35,269 bases of DNA from a virus, in IMG/VR virus record IMGVR_UViG_3300005563_000067, positions 1 through 35,269 of that record, one strand, 5' to 3'. The notes beneath the pieces are model-generated. The model ran no database searches. It worked only from the letters and a program-made list of their open reading frames with translations, and was not told where the DNA came from. Below are positions 2,652 to 33,235 of this stretch, piece after piece. Position 1 is the stretch's first letter, and each line of letters opens with the position of its first letter. Both the position numbers and the translations under genes were made by a program.

Positions 2652-3359
2652 TTAGGCGCCTATGTAAGTCGACAGATTGGCTGCGCCGAAGGTGTTCACG
2701 GAAGTTGACGGCTGGTAGTTTAGCGCGGTCGTTGCACTCACGATTTGATAGGTGAGATCGGCCGACCAATGGTTTGCAGAGTTGTTCAGAGTGGACACTA
2801 GCGACGTAAAGCCGCTGCCCTCTGTGACCGTCGCCGTGGCGTTGTAGAACCCGAGAAAACCCCAAGCGATCTGCTTGGCAGAGGAGAGCGCTCCCGTGCT
2901 GCCCGATGCGTACACGGTGCCGTTATTGGTCTTGCCAGTATTGGTCTTGTCCAAAGGCGAAGCGACCACCCCTGACACATATCCGGCGCAGATGACCGGC
3001 ACGTTGCTCCCGCCCCCAAGAGATGCTGATGAAAATGTGGCCGTCAGAGACGCGCCGGCCCCGACAGGAGAGGCGTTTGCCTTATACCAGGTGTCAACGA
3101 CGACATCACCCGTGGCGTCCCATGCCGAGTGCACGGCTTGCGTGTAGGTGTTCGTGCCGTCGCTTACTCCGGTGATGGTCTGAGCTGCGTTGAACCCGAC
3201 CACGATGCCGACGACCACAAGCGACCCGGACGGGATCGCCGCAGCCGTGGTCAAAGTAACGGACGTGCTTGCGCCTGCACCAGCCGCTGACCCGAGGGAA
3301 ACCGGCGTGCTGATTCGCGCATATTCAGCAAGCAACGCTTGATGGGAGACAGCTGACAT
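2652..3359 (-). CDS. Putative virion/tail protein, unknown fold
   Basis: A 235-residue protein rich in Ser, Thr, Gly and Ala with alternating beta-type sequence, as in phage tail appendage proteins. I recognise no catalytic motif. The ATG at 3359 shares one base with the TGA of the upstream gene (TGATG), arguing for translational coupling. An in-frame ATG at 3389 would add ten residues but has no better ribosome site. It ends 15 bases from the convergent acyltransferase gene. Its position after two fibre-like genes suggests a fibre-associated or decoration role; this is inference. Confidence 0.6.
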   Translation of the reverse strand: MSAVSHQALLAEYARISTPVSLGSAAGAGASTSVTLTTAAAIPSGSLVVVGIVVGFNAAQTITGVSDGTNTYTQAVHSAWDATGDVVVDTWYKANASPVGAGASLTATFSSASLGGGSNVPVICAGYVSGVVASPLDKTNTGKTNNGTVYASGSTGALSSAKQIAWGFLGFYNATATVTEGSGFTSLVSTLNNSANHWSADLTYQIVSATTALNYQPSTSVNTFGAANLSTYIGA

Positions 3360-4549
3360 CAGGTGAGCCCCGCGCCGCTGATGATCCATGACGTCGTCGT
3401 CTTCTTGATCGCCGTCGCCATGCCCATCGGGCCGAGCGTTCGGCTGCCGGTCGTTCCCACGCCCGCGAGGACCAGTGTGTCAGACGTGATCGCAATCGTG
3501 AGCGTGTTGATCTCGTTTACGAAGGTAATTGCAGTTCCGATCGGGTAAGCCACGTTGGCATTGCTATCGATGGTGAAGGTACGAGCGTTGTTGTCGGCCG
3601 TCGGGTGCAGTAGGTGCTTCTGCGCATCTGCTAGAACGGTGGTATATGCGGCGCTCTGCGAGTTCTGAGGTATGTTGGAATAGAGAGGCACGCCCTCAAC
3701 AGCGATCACACCGGCTGCGGAGCGGGTGATCGTCGTATCGCTGGCCGCGCCGAGTTCGATCGATCCCACTGTTATTGCATTCGACGTGCCGAGCGACACC
3801 GGGACGTTGAACGTCAGCAATCCGCTTGAATGCGTGATCGTCGCGTTGCCGTTCGCCCAATTGATGACACCGCCGCTGGCGAGGAAAAGATCGCTGAACT
3901 CCTTGGTTGTGGACCCCAGCGGGGCGCCATCGTCATTGGTCGGTAGCAGTGACGTGCCGACCGTTGCCGTGTTGAGCACCGGGCTGGTGAGTGTCTTCGC
4001 GGTAAGGGTCTGCGTTCCGCCGACGGTGACGACACTGGCCGCATTGGCGCCAGCGTTCGTGACGCGCAGATCGCCGGTGCCGACCGTCACAATGCCGGTA
4101 GTGTGGGTGGCGACCCAATCTCCGGCCGCGATGTTCCAGACGAATCCCGAGGCACCGAACAAGTCGGACCACTGCAGTGCACTTGTCCCCAGCGCATGGC
4201 CGTCCGACGTCGCCGGGGACAGCGCCGATGCAGAGTTGACGAGGCCGGTGAAGAACAGCGCCGGGCTGTCACCCCAGATACTCTTCGCGCCTGCCGACCA
4301 GCTAACGGCGGCGTTGCTGTTCGAGGACGCGAGGATGGCGGTACGCGCCAGTGTCGTGCCGGCAGACGTATATGTGCCGAGCCCAACCTCCCACGCCGTC
4401 CCGTCGGTAATCCCATAGTAGCAGGTATTGCCATCACCGATGGCTGCGAACGATTGGAACCCTGTCGTGGCTCCAGCAAGCGTGTAGGTGCCAGTGCCGG
4501 TCGTAGCTGTCGTTTCCTTGACGCGATCGGCATAGATGGGTCCGGACAT
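3359..4549 (-). CDS. Tail fibre-like protein with internal repeats
   Basis: A 396-residue protein made almost wholly of Gly/Ser/Thr/Ala-rich beta-type sequence. Two imperfect repeats are visible: one around [18 protein letters not shown] (about residues 117-134) and one around [19 protein letters not shown] (about 208-226). Each is followed by a W-N/NG segment and a TH(T/S)xG(I/L) strand. This L-G-x5-SDLF-x-ASG unit is common in phage fibre shafts. The start at 4549 has GAGG seven bases upstream. A terminator-like hairpin precedes it, so it may have separate expression from the upstream tail gene. No chaperone or sugar-binding domain is recognised, so the receptor-binding role is inferred from composition and place. 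Confidence 0.6.
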
Positions 4550-7086: not shown

Positions 7087-7326
7087 TTGCCCAACATCGA
7101 TTTAGAACCTCACCAGTATGCCGACCGTGATCCAAAATCCGGGAAGTGGCGCAGACCGCTCAGCAAGAAAGCCGCAAGGAATTGGACGGCGTTCTGCGTG
7201 CTGTGCCTGACCTTCATCTTCTCCCGTGTGAACGAACTCACTCCCGACATTGCCTTTGGTCTAGGCATCCTGTTTGCGGGCGGTGCGGGCGTCTTCGCCC
7301 AGCAATGGTTGCGCGATCTCTACTGA
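7087..7326 (+). CDS. Small membrane protein, possible holin
   Basis: A 79-residue protein with a basic N-terminal third (including K-W-R-R-P-L-S-K-K) followed by two hydrophobic stretches (about residues 33-46 and 53-70). Start is TTG at 7087; no in-frame ATG is available. It ends overlapping the convergent lysozyme-domain gene by seven bases. Together with the preceding 48-codon gene it makes a rightward pair of tiny membrane proteins. No other holin candidate is seen in the window, so a lysis role is plausible but unproven. Confidence 0.55.
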   Translation: MPNIDLEPHQYADRDPKSGKWRRPLSKKAARNWTAFCVLCLTFIFSRVNELTPDIAFGLGILFAGGAGVFAQQWLRDLY

Positions 7327-9674
7327 GCCAGCAGTCTATTGCCGGAGGCATTTGCTCCGGGCCGCACGATGATCTGCACCGGCTGGCGCGGGGTCGCCAG
7401 CGGCACCCCAGAGCGGAGCAATCGGTTCACTGCCCCCCCGGTAGCCTTCGGGGTCTTGCCGAGAGAATTTTCGATCAGCTTGTTCGCAAGCGTCTTGGAT
7501 CGCAGCAGTGCGCCGGCACCCTTGGCCGTGGCAGCATAGGCCGCCAAGGCGGGAACGCCGGTCGCAAGCGCGAGCGGGATAGCGCCAGGGTTCATTGCCG
7601 CCGCTACGCCAGCGCCGGCCAAGCCCGTTGGCCCGAGCAGTTTCTTGCCGACCTCCATCACGGCCAGCCGCTCGGCGGTGCCGCTCGACGGCGGGGCTTT
7701 CAGGAACCGCTGTCCGATGCGGGCAAGGTCAGCCAGATCGCCACCGCCGCCATAGGCCATGTCGCCGTAAGACCCGCGCACCTGGTTCATCAGAAGCGGC
7801 GCGGAAATATCCCCGGTGGTCGCTTTCTCAGCCAGCGGCTCGATGGTCTTCATCGCCTTCCACTGCGACCGGGCCTGCTTCAAAAGGTCTTGCGCATCCT
7901 GCGGCGCATAGCGGGACAACGCCTCATCCAGCGCCTCCCTCACCTGTCCGGCATAGAATTTGATGTTCGGATCGCTTGAGCTGAGCAGGCGGTCGAGCGG
8001 CGCACCCTTGCGCGTCAATGCCTGATAAACATCGCCGCTAATCCCGTTCTGGCCCTGACCGAACTTGCCGACGATGTCGTCAATCTGAGCCTTTAGCGGC
8101 CCGATCTCAGGAGCGGTCAGCACCTTGTTCGCGTCGTCGGTGATGCGGATCAAATCGCCTTCGATCTGAGGGTCGTAATCGATCCGCGGCGTCTTCTGAG
8201 CGACCGTCTCAAAGTCGCTGCCAATGCGACCCTTGGCGCGCGCCATCACATCGGTGGTGATATGATCGGCGTTCTCACCGAATGTGTGTGCCACTGCCTT
8301 GTTAAAGGCGGACTGCTGCGCCGCGCTCGATGCCGTTCCACCACTCAACGGCATTTTGTTCACGACGGAATCGGCCATGCGGACCATGCCGTTATCGCTG
8401 ATCTGGCCGGGGCCGATCGGGATGCCGAATTTGTCGCGGGCGAGCTGCGCCAATTTGGCAACTTCCGGTGCGGTCCCGCTCAGCAGTTTGTTGATGCCAT
8501 GCCCTATCACGTCCGCAACGGGCGCAGCGCCGGCCCCAAGGGCACCCGCCATAAGCGCGTTCTTGCCGGCATCTTCCACGGAACCGCCGCGAGCGAGTGT
8601 GTCCGCCCCTTCAAGTGCCGCGCTCGATGTCCCGCCCATGACCATCCGAGTCAGCAGGTTGCCGCTCATGCCAAGTGCCTTGGCAACGCCTGGAATGGCC
8701 CCGCCGACCAGATATGGAGCAACAGTTCCCGCTACTGTGCCGACGCCAGAGGCCACTGGTTGCTGAGTCTCGACGGCCTTATCTATTGCCGCGATCTGTT
8801 CCGGCGTCTGGCTGTTGCCATATACCATCTGCTGGACGTTCGATTTCAGCCCGGTAAGGGCGTTCATCGCCGACGGCCCTACAATCGGCAATGCCTCAAC
8901 GCCTGACGTGAAGGCTGCACTGAGGGCGTCGGCGCCGGGGAACAACTGACTTGTGCCGGCCAGAGGGTCAGCCTGCGCCGCCGAGGCCTTTTGCTCAGCG
9001 GTTGGCAAGAACTGCTTCAGGAAATCATCGTCAGCCGACGAAACCGCAGACGCATTTGCCGTCGCGGGCGCACCGCCCGGCAGGAACGCCTTCAACAAAT
9101 CATCGTCGGACACGTTGGCCGGAACAGCGCCAGAAACAGCAGGCGTGGCCGTGGGCGGCGTTTTGGGGCTTGGGGCGACTACTGGCGCGCCAAACGACGG
9201 AACGCCAGGCATGCCCCCAGAGAACGCCGGATTGACGAAACCAGGCTTTGCCGGTTGAGTTACGGCGCCCTCGTCCGGCTGTGCGGCGAACGATCGGGCG
9301 TAGTCGAGACGCTTCCCCGCTTCATCGTCGCCATAACGGATGAATTTCTTGAGCGCTTCGTTCGCGGTCTCGACATCACCCGCTTTGAGAAATGCCGCAG
9401 AGTTCTTAGCCTCTGGGCCAGTCATCTCGTGAACGAGATAATCGAGTTGTGCATCAACATCGGACGGATCGCGGCCGGTCGCCTTGGCGTAGTCCGAAAG
9501 GCCGGTGCGGCGATCAAGCCGCCACTGCATCAAACCCTGCGCGCCCGACCCCGCATTGAGCGCCGTCGGATCAAAGCTCGACTCCTGCTGGATATTGCCA
9601 GCCAGTGCCGCCGCCTGAGGCGCGGTAAACCCGCGCTCGAGCAGGCCTTTGTAGATCGCGTTGCCGTCAGCCAT
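7320..9674 (-). CDS. Internal virion/ejection protein with N-terminal phage lysozyme domain
   Basis: A 784-residue protein. Residues 5-125 form a phage tail-lysozyme domain (NIQQESSFDP at 27-36, catalytic Glu31 likely; GAQGLMQW at 44-51). A Pro/Ala-rich linker follows, holding a duplicated D-D-D-(L/F)-L-K-(A/Q)-F-L-P motif near 190-225. Long Gly/Ala-rich helical stretches near 300-390 and 690-745 could insert in membranes. This matches ejection proteins that digest the cell wall locally and form the DNA channel (P22 gp16 or T7 gp16 role). It overlaps the upstream gene by eight bases, so the two are probably co-translated. Confidence 0.8.
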   Translation of the reverse strand: MADGNAIYKGLLERGFTAPQAAALAGNIQQESSFDPTALNAGSGAQGLMQWRLDRRTGLSDYAKATGRDPSDVDAQLDYLVHEMTGPEAKNSAAFLKAGDVETANEALKKFIRYGDDEAGKRLDYARSFAAQPDEGAVTQPAKPGFVNPAFSGGMPGVPSFGAPVVAPSPKTPPTATPAVSGAVPANVSDDDLLKAFLPGGAPATANASAVSSADDDFLKQFLPTAEQKASAAQADPLAGTSQLFPGADALSAAFTSGVEALPIVGPSAMNALTGLKSNVQQMVYGNSQTPEQIAAIDKAVETQQPVASGVGTVAGTVAPYLVGGAIPGVAKALGMSGNLLTRMVMGGTSSAALEGADTLARGGSVEDAGKNALMAGALGAGAAPVADVIGHGINKLLSGTAPEVAKLAQLARDKFGIPIGPGQISDNGMVRMADSVVNKMPLSGGTASSAAQQSAFNKAVAHTFGENADHITTDVMARAKGRIGSDFETVAQKTPRIDYDPQIEGDLIRITDDANKVLTAPEIGPLKAQIDDIVGKFGQGQNGISGDVYQALTRKGAPLDRLLSSSDPNIKFYAGQVREALDEALSRYAPQDAQDLLKQARSQWKAMKTIEPLAEKATTGDISAPLLMNQVRGSYGDMAYGGGGDLADLARIGQRFLKAPPSSGTAERLAVMEVGKKLLGPTGLAGAGVAAAMNPGAIPLALATGVPALAAYAATAKGAGALLRSKTLANKLIENSLGKTPKATGGAVNRLLRSGVPLATPRQPVQIIVRPGANASGNRLLAQ

Positions 9675-11031
9675 TTGGAGGCGTCACCAGGCCGAGTTGA
9701 ACGGCGGTGCGAAGAGATTGGACAAACTTAGCCTTCTCATCGGGCTTCAGGCCCTCGATCAGCTTCGCGCGCTGTTCGGGCTTCATCAGGTCGAAACCAT
9801 AGGCGCGGGGGTCTTGCGTCGAGTTGAACTCGGAGGACCATTTCGAATAGTCGCTCTCGGGAAGGCCCGAATTGAAGAAAGCACGGGTCTGGGCGTTCTG
9901 CAGTCGAGCCAGCGACAACGCGGTCTTTGCCACGTCGACGGCTGCTGCATTGGAAATCCCAACCGAGGGATTGCCGGCGAAAGCCGCGGCCAGCTTGTCG
10001 TTGGTGTTCGGATCGGTCCCGCCACCACCACCACGAGCGAACTGCGTCAGGTACTTCCGTGCCTCGTCAAAATTCTTGATCTGGTCCGTGTCGGCGACCG
10101 GCATGCCCATGGACTGAAGGAACGATTTGATTTCGTTGATCTGCTCGGTTCCGGGACCGGTGCCTGTGCTTCCCAGCGCCTCGAGGGCGGGAATAGCCTT
10201 TTCCAGCGGCGTGATCGCGGCCTGGTAGCCCGAGGCGGTCTTGAGGTCGTCCGACAGTTGGGCACCCGCCTGCTCGCCGATCTGCTTCAAGGCTTCCTGC
10301 TGGCCCGTGGGCAGCGTGGTGACGACCCCCTGTGGCGGGGCAGCCGTCGCGGCCGGATTGACCGTCGGCGTGCTCTGCGGGTTGGTCTGCGGTGGCACCA
10401 ATGCGTTTGGAGCGGGCAGCGGCGCCATGTCCGGACGCGCCGTAAGCGGATTGACACCGGCCTTTTCAAGCAGCTGACCCGTTGTGCCGGTAATGGGCTG
10501 GCCCTGCGGCGTTGTGCCGATCGTTGCCGGGGTCGCCAGTTCGGACGGGCTGAGCGTTTTGGGGATAGGCGGTCCCATGGCGTTTGCGCCAGTCAGCGGA
10601 CTCACCGTGGTTGGTACAAGCTGGTTCCCGGTGTCGAGCATTTGCGGCGTGCCAAACTGGGCACTGAAGCGCTGCCCCGCATCCAGAGCGCGGAGCCCAA
10701 AATTCGTCGCGAGGTCTCGCAACGCTTTCGGATCGGTGCCGACCTTAGCAACATTTGCCGCTTCCGCCGCATAGACATCGGGGCTCAGAATGCCTTCCTG
10801 CACGGCGCGCTGACCGAACTGGTAGAAATCGTCTGGCGACAGATCGGCTTTGCTGGCAAGGGACGAGAAGCCGTCGACCAGATAGCCGACCTGACCCTTG
10901 ACCAAATCCATATGCTGCTGCTGCGCCGCCAGGGCCTCTCGATTGAGCCCGACCACGTTGCTGGCGGTCGAGAGCAGAGCGTTGTTGTCGGCCTTTGGAT
11001 AGAAACTGACATTGATGTCGGCCATGATCAC
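9667..11031 (-). CDS. Putative internal virion (DNA ejection) protein
   Basis: A 454-residue protein with helical ends and a Pro/Thr/Gln-rich middle (about residues 140-235) likely to be disordered. A Gly run near 330 precedes a C-terminal helical region ending in D-E-K-A-K-F-V-Q-S-L. There is no known catalytic motif. The ATG at 11031 overlaps the upstream stop as ATGA. Placed between a P22 gp7-like protein and a lysozyme-domain protein, it occupies the position of P22 gp20. The role is inferred mainly from order and composition. Confidence 0.65.
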   Translation of the reverse strand: MIMADINVSFYPKADNNALLSTASNVVGLNREALAAQQQHMDLVKGQVGYLVDGFSSLASKADLSPDDFYQFGQRAVQEGILSPDVYAAEAANVAKVGTDPKALRDLATNFGLRALDAGQRFSAQFGTPQMLDTGNQLVPTTVSPLTGANAMGPPIPKTLSPSELATPATIGTTPQGQPITGTTGQLLEKAGVNPLTARPDMAPLPAPNALVPPQTNPQSTPTVNPAATAAPPQGVVTTLPTGQQEALKQIGEQAGAQLSDDLKTASGYQAAITPLEKAIPALEALGSTGTGPGTEQINEIKSFLQSMGMPVADTDQIKNFDEARKYLTQFARGGGGGTDPNTNDKLAAAFAGNPSVGISNAAAVDVAKTALSLARLQNAQTRAFFNSGLPESDYSKWSSEFNSTQDPRAYGFDLMKPEQRAKLIEGLKPDEKAKFVQSLRTAVQLGLVTPPNG

Positions 11032-11693
11032 GCTGCCTTATACATGCCGGCCGGGACGTAGCCCTGTCGCAGCAGTTGGTTGGCGTAGTTGTAGCCGCCG
11101 ATCGTGTTGCCGGCGTTGCTGGCGACATTCCCTGCCCCGGTGACGCCGGCCGCAAGAGCCGTGCCGCCCGACACGATGTTCTGGCCGATATTGGCCCCGG
11201 CGGTGTTCGCGTTGGCCGCCGATGCGGTTGCGGCGTTGGAGCCGAGTTGCGCCGGCTGCATCAGGAAGTTGAAGGCGTTCTGCTTGTTCGTTACGGCATT
11301 GGCGAACTGCTGCTGAAAGGTGGAATCCGCCAGTCCCGTCGCGAAGCCAGCGGCACCTTTTGCAGCAGCACCGGATCGACCGAGACCGCGAGCAGCGGCG
11401 CCGTTCTGGACGCTCTTCAAGCCTTGCCGAAGATTGAACTGATAACCGGGCGTCTTCTCCAGCGTTGCCTGGTCCATCTCAACCGGCGCGGTCAGGTCCG
11501 GCAGCTTGTCGAGCAGCATATTTGTCGCGGTCGCGCCTGCTGTACGGAAGGGCGCAAGGTCGGAGCGACCTTCCTCATACATCTGTTTTTGCGTTGCCGT
11601 CGCATTGTCCGTCGCGGACTTCTGAAGGAAGCCGCCGGCAATCGATCCAGCCGCGCCCAAGGCTGCGGCGCCTACAGTGGCTCCTACCGGCAC
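11028..11693 (-). CDS. DNA transfer/ejection protein, P22 gp7-like
   Basis: A 221-residue Ala/Gly-rich protein with the widespread phage pattern TPGYQFNLRQGLKSVQNGAA (residues 81-100), followed by A-R-G-L-G-R-S-G and a helical F-Q-Q-Q-F...N-x-Q-N-A-F stretch. The first 25 residues are hydrophobic and Ala/Gly-rich and could enter a membrane. This family supplies small internal virion proteins ejected with the DNA. The start overlaps the upstream gene by ten bases, and the gene ends in an ATGA overlap with the next ejection gene, giving a three-gene ejection set. Confidence 0.75.
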   Translation of the reverse strand: MPVGATVGAAALGAAGSIAGGFLQKSATDNATATQKQMYEEGRSDLAPFRTAGATATNMLLDKLPDLTAPVEMDQATLEKTPGYQFNLRQGLKSVQNGAAARGLGRSGAAAKGAAGFATGLADSTFQQQFANAVTNKQNAFNFLMQPAQLGSNAATASAANANTAGANIGQNIVSGGTALAAGVTGAGNVASNAGNTIGGYNYANQLLRQGYVPAGMYKAA

Positions 11694-18861: not shown

Positions 18862-21045
18862 TTATGCCGCGAGCGGCTGAGCCTGTTGCACGGGTTCGGC
18901 GGCAGGCTGTTCGATTTGCGGCTGCATCGGTTGCGGCGCCGGTGCCCCGCCCTGCTCTCCACCAGCAGGCCCCTCACGAAGCATCGACATGATGGTCTGC
19001 ATGATGAGCGGCTGAACCTGTCCCTGCGTCACGTAGGGGCCGGCATTGCCTTCTGCGACGAGCCGCTTCGTATCGGCTTCGAAGGCACGGATGTTTTTCT
19101 CGTCGATCTTGATTGCATAATCGAGCTGCTGGCTTTCCAGCTTCTTGTTGAGTTCGACCACGGCGTTGCTGGCTTCCTGCAACTGCTGCGTGAGCGTCTG
19201 AACTTCCTTGCTCGGGCCATCGCCCTTGATGTTGTCGGGAATCGTCTTGGCCCAGCGTTCCGACAGCTGATCGGCCATCGGGAAATCCGCGGCCTTCCAC
19301 ATCAGGTCGCCGCCGATCTGCATGAACTCTTTGTTCTGCGACGCTATCTGCGTCATGGCGTTGAAGGCTTCCTGTCGACGGGTCGCGTAGGCTGGCCCAA
19401 TATCGCTCACCACCTCATAGCGACCAACGTTCGGGTTGAAGATCGCCTCAACCTGCTGGGCCTCTTCCTGCTGTGCTTTGGCGTACGCCTGCTTGGCCTC
19501 CGGGTCCAACTGGACATGGCTTTCCGTGCCATCCTTGGCGAGGATACGAAGAATGCGCGGTGTGTCGTAGTAGTGCGGGATCGCGTCGATCAGGATTTTG
19601 CCGGTGAACCGGATGCCGATCGCGAGATTGTCGATGTAGTGGTACGTCGCGTTGTCGCCCTGACGCTGACGAGCGTTGATCGCCTTGCCAGACGTCGCGT
19701 TTTCGTTCTGTCCGAACTGCGACTGATACTGTCCCGAGGACATCATCATCTCGTTCTGGGTGATTTGCAGGCCCTGCACATAGGCGGATGCGAGAATGGC
19801 GGGCTGCACACGCTCGGGCGCTGGGATGGTCTTTCCGTCCTCGGTCAGGGCATTGTACGGCAGCACCGCGACTTCATCGATGTTGGCGCGGCCCCAATAT
19901 TCCTCGAGGTTGTCGATCGCCTCTGCCGGAGCGACCCAGGGCGTCTTGGTCTGCAACGCGATCTGAGCCGTCGCTTCGCTGGTCCAGTAGTTGTACATCC
20001 GCTGCGCGTCTTTCATCGCGCGGGTGTGGCCCTTGCGGTCCAGTTTGCCTTCGATGATCGTCTCTTCGCCAATGACGCGGACGATCGGCACGTACTTACC
20101 CAGCCAGGGGCGGCGATCGATGATTTTGGACCCGGCGATCTTGTACCACATCACCAGATCGGTGAGGATTTCGCGCTCATTGACCACATCAGGCGCGGCC
20201 TGTTTTACGGCCTCGTAAAGCGCCTTCACCTCAGCCGACATCTTGCTTTTCGGCATGACGATCTGTTGACCGGCACCAGCGGCCGGCTGGCCGTTGATCA
20301 GGTCCGGAATGACGAACGCAACCAGCGTGTCCTTCTTCTGGGTCTTCTCGTAATATTCACAGACGCGAACGTGGTCTTCATCGATCCACGTATCACCCGC
20401 CTGCCCCAGCACCGACATGCCGGCGTCGTCTTTGAAGTCCGGATATTCCTTGTTGAACTCGTCGCGCGGCTTGTCCTCGAACACAAATCCATAGCGCGCA
20501 TCCGACCCATCGACCTCCGAAATGTCGGGATCAAGATAGACCGAGTCCGGCTGCTTCACGCGCCGGATGTAGAGTTCCTGATCGAAGCTGTCGTTGCTCA
20601 CATAGTCGGTGACCACGCGCCAGTAGCCGATGCCGCCCTCAACCTGGAACGTCGTCGCCGTGTCGTATGCGACCTCGGCATTGCTTTGGTACTCGATGTG
20701 GCGAACGATGCCTTCAAACGTCTGTGCAGCATCGTAGGTGGCGCCATCTCCCACCGGCCGAATGTTCACGCCCGGCTTGTTCTGCTTCGCGTCGTTGATG
20801 ATCTGCAGATTGTGCTGGCGCACCTTGTTGATGGTCAGGCACGGCTTCTTGCGGTCCTGCCGATAGGTCATCAACTGGCTGTCCCACTGCCAGTTATTGT
20901 CGGGGTCCGCGTTGGCGAACTTCAGGTCTTGGATGAAGTTCTTGCGGGCGTTGCCTTCCCACTCTTCGCACAACGCGAAGCGCTGTTTGGCGCGAGCGAC
21001 AATGGCATCGTCACCGGTCAGCGATGAGGTGGAACCGTCAGCCAT
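18862..21045 (-). CDS. Portal protein, P22 gp1-like
   Basis: A 727-residue portal protein, near the 725 residues of P22 gp1. Family marks include NWQWDSQLMTYRQDRKKPCL near the start, a D-S-V-Y-L-D-P-D motif near residue 175, a W-x-E-A-T-A-Q-I-A-L stretch, and Q-N-E-M-M-M-S-S-G-Q-Y-Q. The C-terminal part is a long helix-forming barrel region ending in a Pro/Gln-rich tail. Twelve copies would form the DNA gate of the head. The ATG at 21045 shares one base with the terminase TGA (TGATG). A TTG at 21057 would add four residues. The order terminase-portal-scaffold-coat matches P22-like phages. Confidence 0.88.
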   Translation of the reverse strand: MADGSTSSLTGDDAIVARAKQRFALCEEWEGNARKNFIQDLKFANADPDNNWQWDSQLMTYRQDRKKPCLTINKVRQHNLQIINDAKQNKPGVNIRPVGDGATYDAAQTFEGIVRHIEYQSNAEVAYDTATTFQVEGGIGYWRVVTDYVSNDSFDQELYIRRVKQPDSVYLDPDISEVDGSDARYGFVFEDKPRDEFNKEYPDFKDDAGMSVLGQAGDTWIDEDHVRVCEYYEKTQKKDTLVAFVIPDLINGQPAAGAGQQIVMPKSKMSAEVKALYEAVKQAAPDVVNEREILTDLVMWYKIAGSKIIDRRPWLGKYVPIVRVIGEETIIEGKLDRKGHTRAMKDAQRMYNYWTSEATAQIALQTKTPWVAPAEAIDNLEEYWGRANIDEVAVLPYNALTEDGKTIPAPERVQPAILASAYVQGLQITQNEMMMSSGQYQSQFGQNENATSGKAINARQRQGDNATYHYIDNLAIGIRFTGKILIDAIPHYYDTPRILRILAKDGTESHVQLDPEAKQAYAKAQQEEAQQVEAIFNPNVGRYEVVSDIGPAYATRRQEAFNAMTQIASQNKEFMQIGGDLMWKAADFPMADQLSERWAKTIPDNIKGDGPSKEVQTLTQQLQEASNAVVELNKKLESQQLDYAIKIDEKNIRAFEADTKRLVAEGNAGPYVTQGQVQPLIMQTIMSMLREGPAGGEQGGAPAPQPMQPQIEQPAAEPVQQAQPLAA

Positions 21046-23759
21046 CAACCCATCCAACTCTGCGAACCCTGCGCCGGCCTCGGGGGGCCCTTCGGCAACG
21101 GCAGCTTTGCTTTCTCGCGCACCGCACGGTCGCGGATGTACCAGGCCATCACCACCGCATCGGCTTCATCCGGGGATGATCCAAGCCGAGCCTTGATCGC
21201 CTCTTTGCTTTCGATCTGAATCTTGCCCGACCGCTCGCGCCAGAGGCCTGCGGTCAACTGCGCCATCAGCCTGTCGCCGGGCGGCAAAATGATGTTCTCG
21301 CCATTGTCGGGATCGAGAGCGGTTCGAAATTCCCAGTACATCTTGGCCCGCAGATTGGCGTATTCCAGACCCGTGTCCTTGTCGGTGCCTTCGCCCGCTG
21401 ACGAAAACACAATCGGGACTGCGGCAATTCCGTTGTTCGTCTTCAGGTGATCGCGAGCCGAACCGCCCCAGCCGCCCGTCATGTCGATGCCGATAGCCGC
21501 ACTGTCGCGTCGCAGTTTCAGGATCAGGGCTGCCACACTTGGGCCGTCCGGCGTTTCACTCCCCGGTCGGCTTTCGACGCGCGCGAAATGATTGCCCTCA
21601 TGCAGTCGAGCAATCGCGGTCTTGTCTGGGCCGCCTTGGGCTGGGTCGGTCGCAATCGCCTTCATTCGTGCGACAGGATCGCCAGTCCATCGCGCCTGTG
21701 CGGCACGGACCCACAACGACGGGACAACCTGCCATTCGTCGTCTTCGCGACCGGCGAGGAAATCGCCAAGCAAAAGCTGGGAACGCCGCGGCTCGGGCTG
21801 CGCGTTGATCTGCGCCCGGTATTTGGTGTCCTTCAGGTACGGGTTGTCATCCAACTTGGATGGAATGAAGGTCCGCGAAAGCGGCTCAAGAACCTTATAC
21901 TTGTCCGGGTCAGCGAGTTCCGTTTCGTTTGCGATCCGCCAGCCGTCACCCTCAACAACGATCGGCTCCGGACCATCGACCCAGATCGTTCGAATTTCTG
22001 CCGCTGTACCGACCGCCGCAGCCCAGCGCAGTTCTCCCGGCATTGCCGGAATGGGAAACAACGGATCAAGCCATGGCGCGAACCATTCCAGCAGCCACGC
22101 CCCCTCGTTGCCCATTGGCGGGTTCGAGGCGATAACTGCGCGGCAGCGTATTCCATCAGCAGACCGAAGCCAGCCGAGCACGAACATGACCTTGTCGGCG
22201 CTGAGCTGGGCGCCTTCATCGAACCCGATAAGATCGTGCGGGCGACCCTGCCAGCTGAGTTCCGACCCCGGCAATTCGAGATGGCCGCATTCGACCATTC
22301 GATTATCGTGGGTAGAAAGCTTCTTCTTGTTCGAGTCCTTGTGCCGCGGCTGCGGGTAGAGTTGCAGCAACCGTTCCCAGAAGCCGTCGAGATCGTTTGC
22401 CTGCCGGCGAAAGATCACCGACCGTTTATGTTCCGTCAGCGCGAGGCCGCACAGCAAATCCGTGTTGTGCGTCGGGATAAAGGACCGACCCGCGAGGTAG
22501 AGGTGTGATGGACTATCCACACCAATGCATCGCATAGGGATCGGGTCAATTTCCACCGCGGACACGATGTAGCGAAACGCCCCAACGCGTCTTGTCTTTG
22601 CCTTCTGTCGAGCAAGTTTGCGGGGGAGCCGGAACACGGGACGCGCCGTGGTGAATTTAACCCGCCATTTCTTCCCAACGTAACGTCCGTTGAGCTTCGC
22701 TTTTCCCTCTGTGATAGTGGCCTTGATGCCGAGGCTCACAACAAGTTCATAGACCGCGCAGATCAGTCGATAGTTCGTGTTGTCGAACTCGCACCCGCCA
22801 TCCAGGGCGGCATGACCATCAGTGTCCATGAGCCCTTGAAGAACGGCGGCGCGCTGCTCTTCACTCGCTCTAAGGTATGCCGCAGGAACGTGCTTATTCT
22901 TTAGGAGCCCCGCTGCCCTCAATTGAGCTTTCAGCCCTCGAATATAATGGGACTGTGGGTCGCTTGGCGCATGCGTAACGACGTAGCCAGCATTTTCAAT
23001 TTGCTGCCAGATGAACGGATCGATCCCGGTGAATCCGCCACTGCTCGATGTTCCATCCCCGAGCCACGCACCGAGGGTATAGGGGTCGATCGGTAGCTCG
23101 GCATGCGGAGTTTCTATTGCCTTCGAAACCTGGACCGCGTGGTTCCGACGACCGCGCGCTGTCAGAAGGGTGTCGACGACCTGCTGCGTCGTACGTACCG
23201 TACCCGACGGAACATCGGATCCCTTTGCCATGCGCGAGTTTCGGGCAGAGATAGCAGCCCGGAACGCCGCGCTCTTGTTCGAGCCAGCGCGAGACGGACG
23301 TGCCGCCCGGCGCTTCGCGCGCCATGCATCAGATTTGCGCAGAAGACCCGCTAGTTCGTCGGCGTCGTAGGTCAACCAGAGATGATCAGCGCAACACTCA
23401 ATCCTAGTTCCGTCGTCGAACTCGAGCCTGTAGGTCTTCGCTGTCTTTACCGGAGAGACCACCAGAACCCGAGTCGGCTTCCCCATCTCGTCGAACACCG
23501 TGTCTCCCACGGACACGTCGCCCATACGGACCCAGCCGGCTGGGGTCGGAAGAACCTCATCGACACTCAGGAGCTTTCCGCCACCAGCCGCGCCGCCATA
23601 TAGCAGCAAGTCGGCTTCTGACAGAAATGCTTCGAGTTGTGGCCCCGGCGTCGGAAGCCACGGCTTTGCCAGTTCCTCAGCCAGAACCTTGTCGAGTTCC
23701 GCCATCCCCGCCTCATCAAGAGTGGCGAGCGCGGCATCCAGCCGATCAAGAGCGCCCAT
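21045..23759 (-). CDS. terL: Terminase large subunit interrupted by an intein
   Basis: The DNA-packaging motor ATPase and nuclease, encoded as a 904-residue precursor. Host residues 1-62 and 433-904 join to a 534-residue protein. Walker A is split: GGAAGGGK at 55-62, then Thr433 after the intein. Walker B is IGFDE at 511-515, and the coupling motif is IASNP at 543-547. The C-terminal nuclease has acidic candidates Asp705 (TDPAQGG), Asp759 (IGIDMTGG) and Asp864/Asp867 (SPDEADAVV). The ATG directly follows the terminase small-subunit stop (TAGATG). Because the P-loop lies across the insertion, the unspliced protein should not bind ATP. No frameshift or stop is seen in the intein or the flanks. 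Confidence 0.92.
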   Translation of the reverse strand: MGALDRLDAALATLDEAGMAELDKVLAEELAKPWLPTPGPQLEAFLSEADLLLYGGAAGGGKLLSVDEVLPTPAGWVRMGDVSVGDTVFDEMGKPTRVLVVSPVKTAKTYRLEFDDGTRIECCADHLWLTYDADELAGLLRKSDAWRAKRRAARPSRAGSNKSAAFRAAISARNSRMAKGSDVPSGTVRTTQQVVDTLLTARGRRNHAVQVSKAIETPHAELPIDPYTLGAWLGDGTSSSGGFTGIDPFIWQQIENAGYVVTHAPSDPQSHYIRGLKAQLRAAGLLKNKHVPAAYLRASEEQRAAVLQGLMDTDGHAALDGGCEFDNTNYRLICAVYELVVSLGIKATITEGKAKLNGRYVGKKWRVKFTTARPVFRLPRKLARQKAKTRRVGAFRYIVSAVEIDPIPMRCIGVDSPSHLYLAGRSFIPTHNTDLLCGLALTEHKRSVIFRRQANDLDGFWERLLQLYPQPRHKDSNKKKLSTHDNRMVECGHLELPGSELSWQGRPHDLIGFDEGAQLSADKVMFVLGWLRSADGIRCRAVIASNPPMGNEGAWLLEWFAPWLDPLFPIPAMPGELRWAAAVGTAAEIRTIWVDGPEPIVVEGDGWRIANETELADPDKYKVLEPLSRTFIPSKLDDNPYLKDTKYRAQINAQPEPRRSQLLLGDFLAGREDDEWQVVPSLWVRAAQARWTGDPVARMKAIATDPAQGGPDKTAIARLHEGNHFARVESRPGSETPDGPSVAALILKLRRDSAAIGIDMTGGWGGSARDHLKTNNGIAAVPIVFSSAGEGTDKDTGLEYANLRAKMYWEFRTALDPDNGENIILPPGDRLMAQLTAGLWRERSGKIQIESKEAIKARLGSSPDEADAVVMAWYIRDRAVREKAKLPLPKGPPRPAQGSQSWMG
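22464..23573 (-). mobile_element. Class 3-type intein with LAGLIDADG endonuclease in the terminase P-loop
   Basis: Residues 63-432 (370 aa) of the terminase precursor. It starts LLSVDEVLPTPAGWVRMGD with Leu in place of the usual Cys/Ser/Ala, and ends FIPTHN before Thr. Block B is GTRIECCADHLW with His126 and Trp128. Block F is MRCIGVDSPSHLYLAG with Cys411 where many inteins have Asp. Block G has Thr430-His431-Asn432 followed by Thr433. Trp, Cys and Thr at these sites are the WCT signature of class 3 inteins, in which the block F Cys makes the first attack. Two LAGLIDADG motifs are present: LGAWLGDG (229-236, Asp235) and LQGLMDTDG (307-315, Asp314). Both the splicing and endonuclease parts look intact. 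Confidence 0.9.
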
Positions 23760-30435: not shown

Positions 30436-30482
30436 GCCCCCTCCTCCCCATCATCGCCTACGGTGAAGCCGCGATTGGTCAA
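30432..30482 (-). CDS. Possible 16-residue leader peptide
   Basis: A tiny frame starting TTG and overlapping the stop of the DUF1376 gene by three bases. AGGAG lies eight bases upstream. It encodes M-T-N-R-G-F-T-V-G-D-D-G-E-E-G-A and ends in a GTGA overlap with the next gene. It fills the gap with overlapping coupling signals at both ends, so it could serve translational relay; it may also be chance. Confidence 0.25.
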   Translation of the reverse strand: MTNRGFTVGDDGEEGA

Positions 30483-31093
30483 TGGACGCTCTCCTGCGAT
30501 TTGAGGTTGGCACGAGCCTGGGCGACGACCGACGCAGCGAAGCTCTTGTGCTCGATGAAATCCTTGACGGGCTCGGTGAGCGCGACACACGCCGCGAACA
30601 GCGGAGCGTCCATGTTCTTGTTCACGTCCACCATCTTCTCAGTCGGGTCAGAAAGCGTAGCGCGCCCTTTCTTCAATGGGGTTGAAGTGGAAGACGCGCG
30701 CGTAAGCTTGAGCCTGGCTTGGACTAGATCGTTGTTTTTCTTAGCTTCTGCTTTCATTTCAGCGGATTTATCTCCGCCTTTCGCGCCGTTCTCAGCGTGT
30801 TCTCGCGCAACTTTCGCGGCTTTTTCGATCTCGATCCCGGCTCTGTCATTCATCAAATGGCCGTCGATCGATACCAGTTTCCCGAGGTCGATCAGCCGGG
30901 CGCGGATGGCGTTCCACTTCCGAACCGAGCAGTTGCAGATGCCGGCGATGTAGCGAGGCTCGTCCGCGATAGGACCGCCGCGCTGATAGATCATGTCGAT
31001 GACAACGCCATAGGCCCCCTTCTCCTCAAGCGACATGCCGTTGATGCCGCCAAGGAAGTTGTCGGGGAACCGCCGGTACCAGGGCTGCGTCAT
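30479..31093 (-). CDS. DUF1376 (YdaU-like) replication-associated protein
   Basis: A 204-residue protein with the DUF1376 domain in its first 100 residues: W-Y-R-R-F-P-D-N-F, M-S-L-E-E-K-G-A-Y-G-V-V-I-D-M-I-Y, G-G-P-I and G-I-C-N-C-S-V-R-K-W-N-A. The second half is charged and Lys/Ala-rich, probably a flexible interaction region. The family is found beside phage replication initiators and is believed to act in replication initiation. The ATG at 31093 gives an ATGA overlap with the upstream gene; an ATG at 31102 would add three residues. A related short DUF1376 domain lies next door. Confidence 0.75.
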   Translation of the reverse strand: MTQPWYRRFPDNFLGGINGMSLEEKGAYGVVIDMIYQRGGPIADEPRYIAGICNCSVRKWNAIRARLIDLGKLVSIDGHLMNDRAGIEIEKAAKVAREHAENGAKGGDKSAEMKAEAKKNNDLVQARLKLTRASSTSTPLKKGRATLSDPTEKMVDVNKNMDAPLFAACVALTEPVKDFIEHKSFAASVVAQARANLKSQESVH

Positions 31094-31587
31094 CCGCGCC
31101 ATTCCTCAACCGTTTTGCGACCCTTCGACAGATTGCATGTCCGGCAAGCCACGGTGAGATTTGTCGGGTCGTCGGTTCCGCCGTCAGCCACCGAGACAAT
31201 ATGATCGATGTGGAATGGCCCCGCTGTCGTGCCGCAGTACCGGCATTGTGCGCCGTCGCGTCTGATGACAAACGCGCGAGTGCCGATCGACAATGGCCGG
31301 CGTCCGACCAGCCGTTCCCAGCGAGCCCATCTCTTCAGATGAAGCGACCAAAGCAGCCCGTCGACTTCCTCAAAATAGCCGCCCAACGCCTCCCACGCGG
31401 CGGCGAAGTCTCGCTTCGAAAGCTTGGTGATCCTGCGCAGCCTGTGTTGCTCTGGGGGCAGCACCCCGCCATTGGCGTCGGCGGCCACCAGCAGCAAGAT
31501 GTATGCTCCGATTTCCTCAGCGGAGAGCAACAGGGTGTCCCCGACAAAATCGGAGACATAGAGCTGCATGAACGGGCGCTCGCTCAT
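31090..31587 (-). CDS. DUF1376-HNH endonuclease fusion
   Basis: A 165-residue protein. Residues 1-95 are a compact DUF1376 domain (F-M-Q-L-Y-V-S-D-F, LLLSAEEIGAYILLLVAA, N-G-G-V-L-P). Residues 110-161 are a full HNH domain: zinc-binding Cys115-x2-Cys118 and Cys148-x2-Cys151, catalytic His126-I-D-His129, and Asn143/Asn152. The ATG at 31587 overlaps the upstream stop as ATGA; the downstream end overlaps the next DUF1376 gene. A nuclease tethered to a replication-associated domain may act at the phage origin or on host DNA; this is inference. Confidence 0.8.
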   Translation of the reverse strand: MSERPFMQLYVSDFVGDTLLLSAEEIGAYILLLVAADANGGVLPPEQHRLRRITKLSKRDFAAAWEALGGYFEEVDGLLWSLHLKRWARWERLVGRRPLSIGTRAFVIRRDGAQCRYCGTTAGPFHIDHIVSVADGGTDDPTNLTVACRTCNLSKGRKTVEEWRG

Positions 31588-32033
31588 AGAGAGCCCTTCT
31601 CCATCCGCTGTGTGTGCTTCCTGATGCCATGCAGCACGGTCGTATGATCGCGGTCGCCAAAGCGCTTGCCGATTTGCGGCAAGCTCATCGTGGTTTCGTG
31701 GCGGCAGCGCCAAAATATCTCGTGACGCGCCCGTACCACCATCTGGTCACGCCGAGCCGAGAACAGATCGGTCATGCTCACCTGGTGCTTGGCCGCGACC
31801 TCGCAGGCGATTCGCTTCCAAGGTGGTGTAAACAGCTCATGGACGACTATATTGCCGTACTCGTCTATTTCCTCGATCGCTCGAAGGAACAGCTTGTGCT
31901 TGCGTCGCTCTTTCACGGCGACGAATGGGGAGACTGGGCGTGGCCGTGGCGGCTTTGGTGCCGGTGCGGCGCCAAACCATAACCGGCGGCTCGCTGACGC
32001 CCATGCCTGATGCTGTTCTGCCAATTCGTTCAC
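31584..32033 (-). CDS. DnaA domain IV-like DNA-binding protein
   Basis: A 149-residue protein whose C-terminal half (about residues 72-145) is the DnaA-box-binding domain. It has the basic loop S-A-R-R-D-Q-M-V-V-R-A-R-H (92-104) and the DnaA signature GDRDHTTVLHGIRK (126-139). The AAA+ ATPase domain of DnaA is absent. The first 70 residues are Pro-rich and helical. It is placed between a RusA-like resolvase and a DUF1376-HNH protein with ATGA overlaps on both sides, so it is part of the replication block. It could bind DnaA boxes at a phage origin or compete with host DnaA. Confidence 0.8.
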   Translation of the reverse strand: MNELAEQHQAWASASRRLWFGAAPAPKPPRPRPVSPFVAVKERRKHKLFLRAIEEIDEYGNIVVHELFTPPWKRIACEVAAKHQVSMTDLFSARRDQMVVRARHEIFWRCRHETTMSLPQIGKRFGDRDHTTVLHGIRKHTQRMEKGSL

Positions 32034-32416: not shown

Positions 32417-33235
32417 TTATGCCGCCTCGTCTGTGAACATGCCGCGGTCGGCAGCAATTCGCTGTTCAGCCAGCTCGGCAAATTCGGGGTTGAGTTCGAT
32501 GAGAATGGCGTTGAGCCGCAGCCGGTCGGCAACGAGGCCGGTGGTTCCCGCACCGCCGAACGGATCAAGCACCGTTCCACCAGGTGGACAGCTCGCCGCA
32601 ATGCATGGTTCGATCAGGTCAGGCGGGAACGCCGCACTGTGGCCGTCATATCCTCGAGGAGAGACTGTCCACACTGTGCCGTGCGGCAGCTTGCTCACGT
32701 CGAAATGGTAGTCCTTGTTCTTGGAGAACAGGAACAGCATTTCATGGGAGCCCGCCGGGCGGTCGGCGCGCGTCGGCTCAGTTGCCGAGCCCTTGTTCCA
32801 AACCACATCTCGTCGCAGATACCATCCTGCCGTGCGGAGCTTCGTGGCGACCAGCCACGGCACTCCAACGAGGTCTTTTTGCTTATATCCTGGCGGGGCA
32901 TTGCGCCATCCGGTAAGATGCTTTCGATGGTCCCATTTGCCACCCCGCTTCGCCATGAGTTTGCCGCCGCCGCCCTTGCCGGATGCAGCGTAACTATCCC
33001 CGAGGTTCAGCCAAAACGAACCATCGTCGCGGAGCACTCGACGGCATTCGTCAAAGACCTCGACCAAGGAGCCCGCAAAGGTCTCCGGCGTCGTTTCCAT
33101 ACCGAGCTGGCCCGGCATGCCATAATCCCGCTGTGCGCCCCAATAGGGCGGCGACGTGACGATGCAGTTGACCGAGCCGTCAGCCAGTTCCCGCAACTTC
33201 TCCCGGCAATCGCCAACGAGGATTGAAACCGTCAC
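32417..33235 (-). CDS. Orphan beta-class DNA methyltransferase
   Basis: A 272-residue enzyme with motif order IV then I, the beta class: TSPPYW at 27-32 (catalytic) and DPFGGAGTTG at 224-233 (S-adenosylmethionine). It would methylate adenine N6 or cytosine N4; TSPPYW does not settle which. Start is GTG, overlapping the upstream stop as GTGA. No restriction endonuclease gene is nearby, so its likely use is to mask phage DNA from host restriction or to mark DNA for replication. The recognition sequence cannot be read from the sequence. Confidence 0.85.
   Translation of the reverse strand: MTVSILVGDCREKLRELADGSVNCIVTSPPYWGAQRDYGMPGQLGMETTPETFAGSLVEVFDECRRVLRDDGSFWLNLGDSYAASGKGGGGKLMAKRGGKWDHRKHLTGWRNAPPGYKQKDLVGVPWLVATKLRTAGWYLRRDVVWNKGSATEPTRADRPAGSHEMLFLFSKNKDYHFDVSKLPHGTVWTVSPRGYDGHSAAFPPDLIEPCIAASCPPGGTVLDPFGGAGTTGLVADRLRLNAILIELNPEFAELAEQRIAADRGMFTDEAA

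Follow-up and report, generated by a model that had tools for sequence, protein, structure and literature searches.

Organization of the terminase locus

The window, the whole stretch of DNA analyzed here, is a viral contig of 35,269 bases from IMG/VR. It contains a gene for the large terminase subunit (TerL), which adjoins genes for the small terminase, portal, scaffolding-like, and major head proteins (PHROGs) and is interrupted by an intein (Table 1). The C-extein alone was recognized as a terminase large subunit (PHROGs, 1.8e-28). In translation, the intein spans TerL precursor residues 63 to 432 in frame, starting with LLSVDEV and ending with IPTHN, with Leu at position 1 and Thr at position +1. 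The K62 codon (AAG, 23576-23574) lies directly before that of the intein Leu, and the Thr433 codon (ACG, 22463-22461) directly after that of the intein Asn, so that the insertion point (...LLLYGGAAGGGK ^ TDLLCGLALTEH...) falls in the Walker A motif of the terminase, GGAAGGGK^TD. No stop codon or frameshift was found in the 370 intein codons (23573-22464). The GC content was 58.8% in the intein and 61.4 to 62.4% in the exteins, a gap that is too small for dating the arrival of the intein.

Table 1. Coordinates of the features of the intein-containing terL gene, with the basis for each
Feature	Position	Strand	Basis
Intein-containing large terminase (TerL) gene, 904 aa	21045..23759	-	Translation; PHROGs terminase large subunit, 4.7e-32
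N-extein, 62 aa, ending in Walker A ...GGAAGGGK	23574..23759	-	Translation, intein-free alleles
Class 3 intein with LAGLIDADG homing endonuclease domain, 370 aa	22464..23573	-	Translation, Pfam, alignments, predicted fold
Block B His64-Leu-Trp66 (B:10 and B:12)	23376..23384	-	H and W in 159/159 inteins among the matches listed
First LAGLIDADG motif, LGAWLGDG (Asp173)	23052..23075	-	D in 155/159 inteins among the matches listed
Second LAGLIDADG motif, LQGLMDTDG (Asp252)	22815..22841	-	D in 154/159 inteins among the matches listed
Block F Cys349 (F:4), predicted first nucleophile	22527..22529	-	C in 159/159 among the matches listed; aligns with block F Cys of solved class 3 DnaB inteins
Block G Thr368-His369-Asn370 (G:5-G:7)	22464..22472	-	Alignments
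C-extein, 472 aa, beginning TDLLCG; Walker B-like LIGFDEGAQ and C-terminal nuclease region	21048..22463	-	PHROGs, motif reading from sequence
+1 Thr433 of the C-extein, predicted second nucleophile and Walker A Thr	22461..22463	-	Translation, intein-free alleles

Intein-free alleles and the insertion site

The C-extein was used as the query in a scan of IMG/VR, which yielded 79 TerL loci. Among these, 77 were intein-free, with an uninterrupted P-loop and the same flanks (mostly GGxxGGGK-S/T), and they aligned across the point between the Walker A Lys and Thr, the site of the TerL1-a type; one of them (L019), with 68% TerL identity, reads GGAAGGGK^TDLLCGLALTEH. The uninterrupted relatives fix the boundaries of the intein. 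An earlier note on this DNA had placed the intein at 22464-23573, between Lys62 and Thr433 of the Walker A motif, with Leu rather than Cys, Ser, or Thr at position 1, and had proposed a search for intein-free TerL alleles; both the translation and the alleles found by the search (77/79) agree with this placement. The sizes given there, 534 residues for the ligated product (904 minus 370) and 370 for the intein, are also correct. In addition, tblastn matches to phage inteins ran the full length of the element (residues 2-370, down to 2e-61). Together with the intein-free TerL alleles, these matches indicate that the intein reading is not a product of chance.

An intein is present in the two remaining loci. 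One of them belongs to the same virus as the window; in the other (L041; TerL identity, 52%), precisely this point is occupied by a different class 3 intein. The near-identical contig (L001/L018/L097) is identical to the window over 9,110 bp and is thus not independent, so it provides no evidence of selection on the intein. A defective insertion, which would have lost splicing and left an inactive terminase and a dead phage, is extremely unlikely, given that the frame is open throughout, all catalytic residues and extein motifs are intact, and the same sequence occurs in two viral contigs. A decayed intein was rejected because there was no sign of decay.

Up to 40 of 48 bases around the insertion point were conserved in the intein-free alleles, as expected for a homing target. 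Of the related inteins listed, 136 of 158 were inserted at GK^S/T, and at least 32 of the sampled inteins lay in P-loops of the GGxxxxGK type. Judged from the sequences, this sample (136/158) shows that class 3 inteins strongly favor GK^S/T P-loops, in different ATPases. This preference is consistent with homing that reuses the P-loop, a conserved target.

Class assignment

The intein has a complete WCT triplet, namely, Trp B:12 (W66), Cys F:4 (C349), and Thr G:5 (T368); the earlier note had listed the same residues, correctly, as Trp128, Cys411, and Thr430 of the precursor. Position 1, at the boundary set by the intein-free alleles, holds no Cys, Ser, or Thr. The +1 residue is Thr433, the C terminus is H369-N370, and His B:10 is H64. 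Class 3 is defined in the literature by these features (PMC5222942, PMC7891396). When the intein was aligned with 11 inteins from isolated phages, the signature residues were invariant except for position 1 and position +1. Among the 159 inteins in the matches listed, which are samples from viral and bacterial contigs and not full collections, His B:10, the W, C, and T residues, and Asn G:7 were the same in all, His G:6 was present in 157, and, after L113 was corrected for an offset of one residue, none had a nucleophile (Cys, Ser, or Thr) at position 1. Leu at position 1 was rejected as an oddity, since it is shared by 18 of the 158 relatives listed and ranks second after Ala (108). The apparent position-1 Cys in L113 and a few other oddities were rejected as one-residue offsets of the boundary extrapolation.

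The family profile retrieved solved class 3 DnaB inteins as its top matches (Mycobacterium smegmatis, 1.5e-39; M. chimaera, 2.8e-39), and the W, C, and THN residues lined up with those of the Msm and Mch DnaB1 inteins in the profile alignment. The alignment with class 3 inteins suggested in the earlier note thus gave matching signature residues for both the phage inteins and the solved DnaB inteins. A class 1 intein was rejected because position 1 is Leu, and a class 2 intein was rejected because the full WCT triplet is present. Splicing of the class 2 type, in which the +1 Thr would attack the N-terminal junction directly and Cys349 would be incidental, shares with the window intein the lack of a nucleophile at position 1; however, the triplet is complete, the block F Cys is conserved in 159 of 159 inteins among the matches listed, and the closest solved relatives belong to class 3, so that this alternative is almost certainly wrong. 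Assignment to class 3, which the earlier note had worded as "class 3-like," is supported more firmly by the sequence criteria, with the alignment, the profile search, the predicted fold, and the intein-free alleles in agreement.

Predicted fold and homing endonuclease

The AlphaFold model of the intein, built with 42 sequences, had a pLDDT of 90.7 and a pTM of 0.88. In a Foldseek search, its splicing domain matched the class 3 mini-inteins 6rix, 6riy, and 6bs8 (target TM, 0.81 to 0.85), and PI-SceI was matched across both domains (2e-19); the structure search also returned I-DmoI. The predicted fold is that of a HINT domain, and Cys349 aligned with the catalytic Cys of 6rix and 6bs8 in the profile alignment. 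From this alignment and the fold match, we infer a probable Cys-His-Thr active-site geometry.

The intein contains two LAGLIDADG motifs with the catalytic Asp (D173 and D252), both of which the earlier note had reported as kept, together with the predicted domain fold and a Pfam LAGLIDADG_3 match (6.4e-8). The motifs, the profile search, and the model support a homing endonuclease that is likely intact, as had been suggested. A class 3 intein that splices while its endonuclease is inactive on the present target is unlikely, though far from negligible. Decay of the endonuclease domain is common in inteins, intein-free alleles form the large majority among the TerL relatives, and activity cannot be read from sequence. 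However, both catalytic Asp residues are kept, the domain was predicted with high confidence and matched PI-SceI, and the motif Asp residues are conserved in 154 to 155 of the 159 relatives listed.

Proposed splicing and homing

We consider it highly probable (about 95%) that the element is a mobile intein of class 3 that occupies the conserved Lys^Thr point in the Walker A motif of TerL, with splicing and DNA cleavage expected by analogy with characterized relatives. Class 3 chemistry has been demonstrated for characterized inteins (PMC5222942, PMC7664689), and both splicing and homing cleavage have been demonstrated for other TerL inteins (PMC5050341); by the same analogy, the window intein would share this chemistry and both activities. 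In the proposed mechanism, Cys349, assisted by His64 and Thr368, would attack the Lys62-Leu63 bond to form the branched thioester of class 3, and the acyl group would then be taken by Thr433. The intein would be released by cyclization of Asn370; the product of an O-N acyl shift would be ...GGAAGGGKTDLL..., with the Walker A motif GGAAGGGKT and an intact P-loop in a ligated packaging ATPase of 534 aa. Cleavage of intein-free terL genes by the LAGLIDADG domain, at the codons of the P-loop, would let the intein be copied into them and would maintain its spread. Redox-sensitive splicing is reported for a mycobacterial DnaB intein (PMC6195587). Conditional splicing of the window intein, for example, redox sensitivity through Cys349 that would time activation of the packaging motor, rather than a silent passenger, is very unlikely.

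Comparison with known inteins

The earlier note had left open whether this site was known for class 3 inteins; it is, both as TerL1-a and in isolated phages in GenBank. The terminase P-loop Lys^Thr site has been described as "TerL1-a" (Kelley et al. 2016, PMC5050341), and the same paper covers class 3 inteins located elsewhere in TerL. The TerL1-a inteins of mycobacteriophages share this position, separating the Lys and Thr that are invariant in the terminase P-loop. The window is not a mycobacteriophage; its TerL differs in having a Walker A motif of the GGxxxxGK type and is accompanied by a portal and an ejection module that are P22-like. As read from their sequences, the isolated phages JeTaime, CMP1, CN1A, SOVA965, and B124-14 have class 3 inteins in the P-loop. 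The TerL of Mycobacterium phage JeTaime (KNGK^T) has the class 3 signature at the same site, and its intein is about 40% identical to that of the window. Stenotrophomonas phage SOVA965, Clavibacter phages CMP1 and CN1A, and Bacteroides phage B124-14 share with the window the WCT and THN residues and insertion at GK^T/S. Microcystis phage Mwe-JY05 has the same signature at GK^T/S in a gene annotated as hypothetical, which may encode TerL. The inteins of these last five phages also lack a position-1 nucleophile, but they are 35 to 42% identical to the window intein and have P, D, A, or E at position 1 instead of L.

The nearest relatives in the tree among the matches listed are three inteins of uncultivated viruses from IMG/VR (L098, L099, and L100; 98% local support, 53 to 58% identity). 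They are three of the inteins in P-loops of the GGxxxxGK type and are inserted at the same GGAAGGGK^TDL or GGSAGGGK^TDL site, whereas their position 1 is Gly rather than Leu. The mycobacterial DnaB class 3 inteins (MsmDnaB1, 6bs8; MchDnaB1, 6rix), whose class 3 chemistry is known (PMC7664689), have the HINT domain and WCT triad in common with the window intein but are mini-inteins without an endonuclease and reside in a replicative helicase. In 2020, 1,701 class 3 inteins were counted, 82.5% of them with LAGLIDADG motifs (PMC7891396). Both the type of element and the insertion point are well known, and the window intein is one more ordinary example. It adds a clean, endonuclease-bearing class 3 intein at the terminase P-loop of an uncultivated phage and changes no concept.

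Other features of the window

Two IMG/VR sequences (L156 and L172, at about 3001-4014) have related class 3 inteins in an apparent portal protein, with the insertion point KDAQRMYNYW^TSEATAQ in L156. The portal gene of the window (18862-21057, minus strand) has exactly the L156 portal stretch, uninterrupted, and thus has another potential site for an intein, which is unoccupied. Of the two neighboring minus-strand reading frames at 31093-31713 and 30482-31102, one combines a DUF1376 domain with an HNH endonuclease domain, and the other encodes a second DUF1376/primosomal-like protein; the pair possibly arose by duplication with HNH capture. An N6/N4 DNA methyltransferase is encoded at 32420-33235 on the minus strand (Pfam, 6.6e-39). 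DNA ejection proteins are encoded at 7323-9674 and 11031-11693, also on the minus strand (PHROGs), and these proteins, together with the portal family, suggest a P22-like podovirus.
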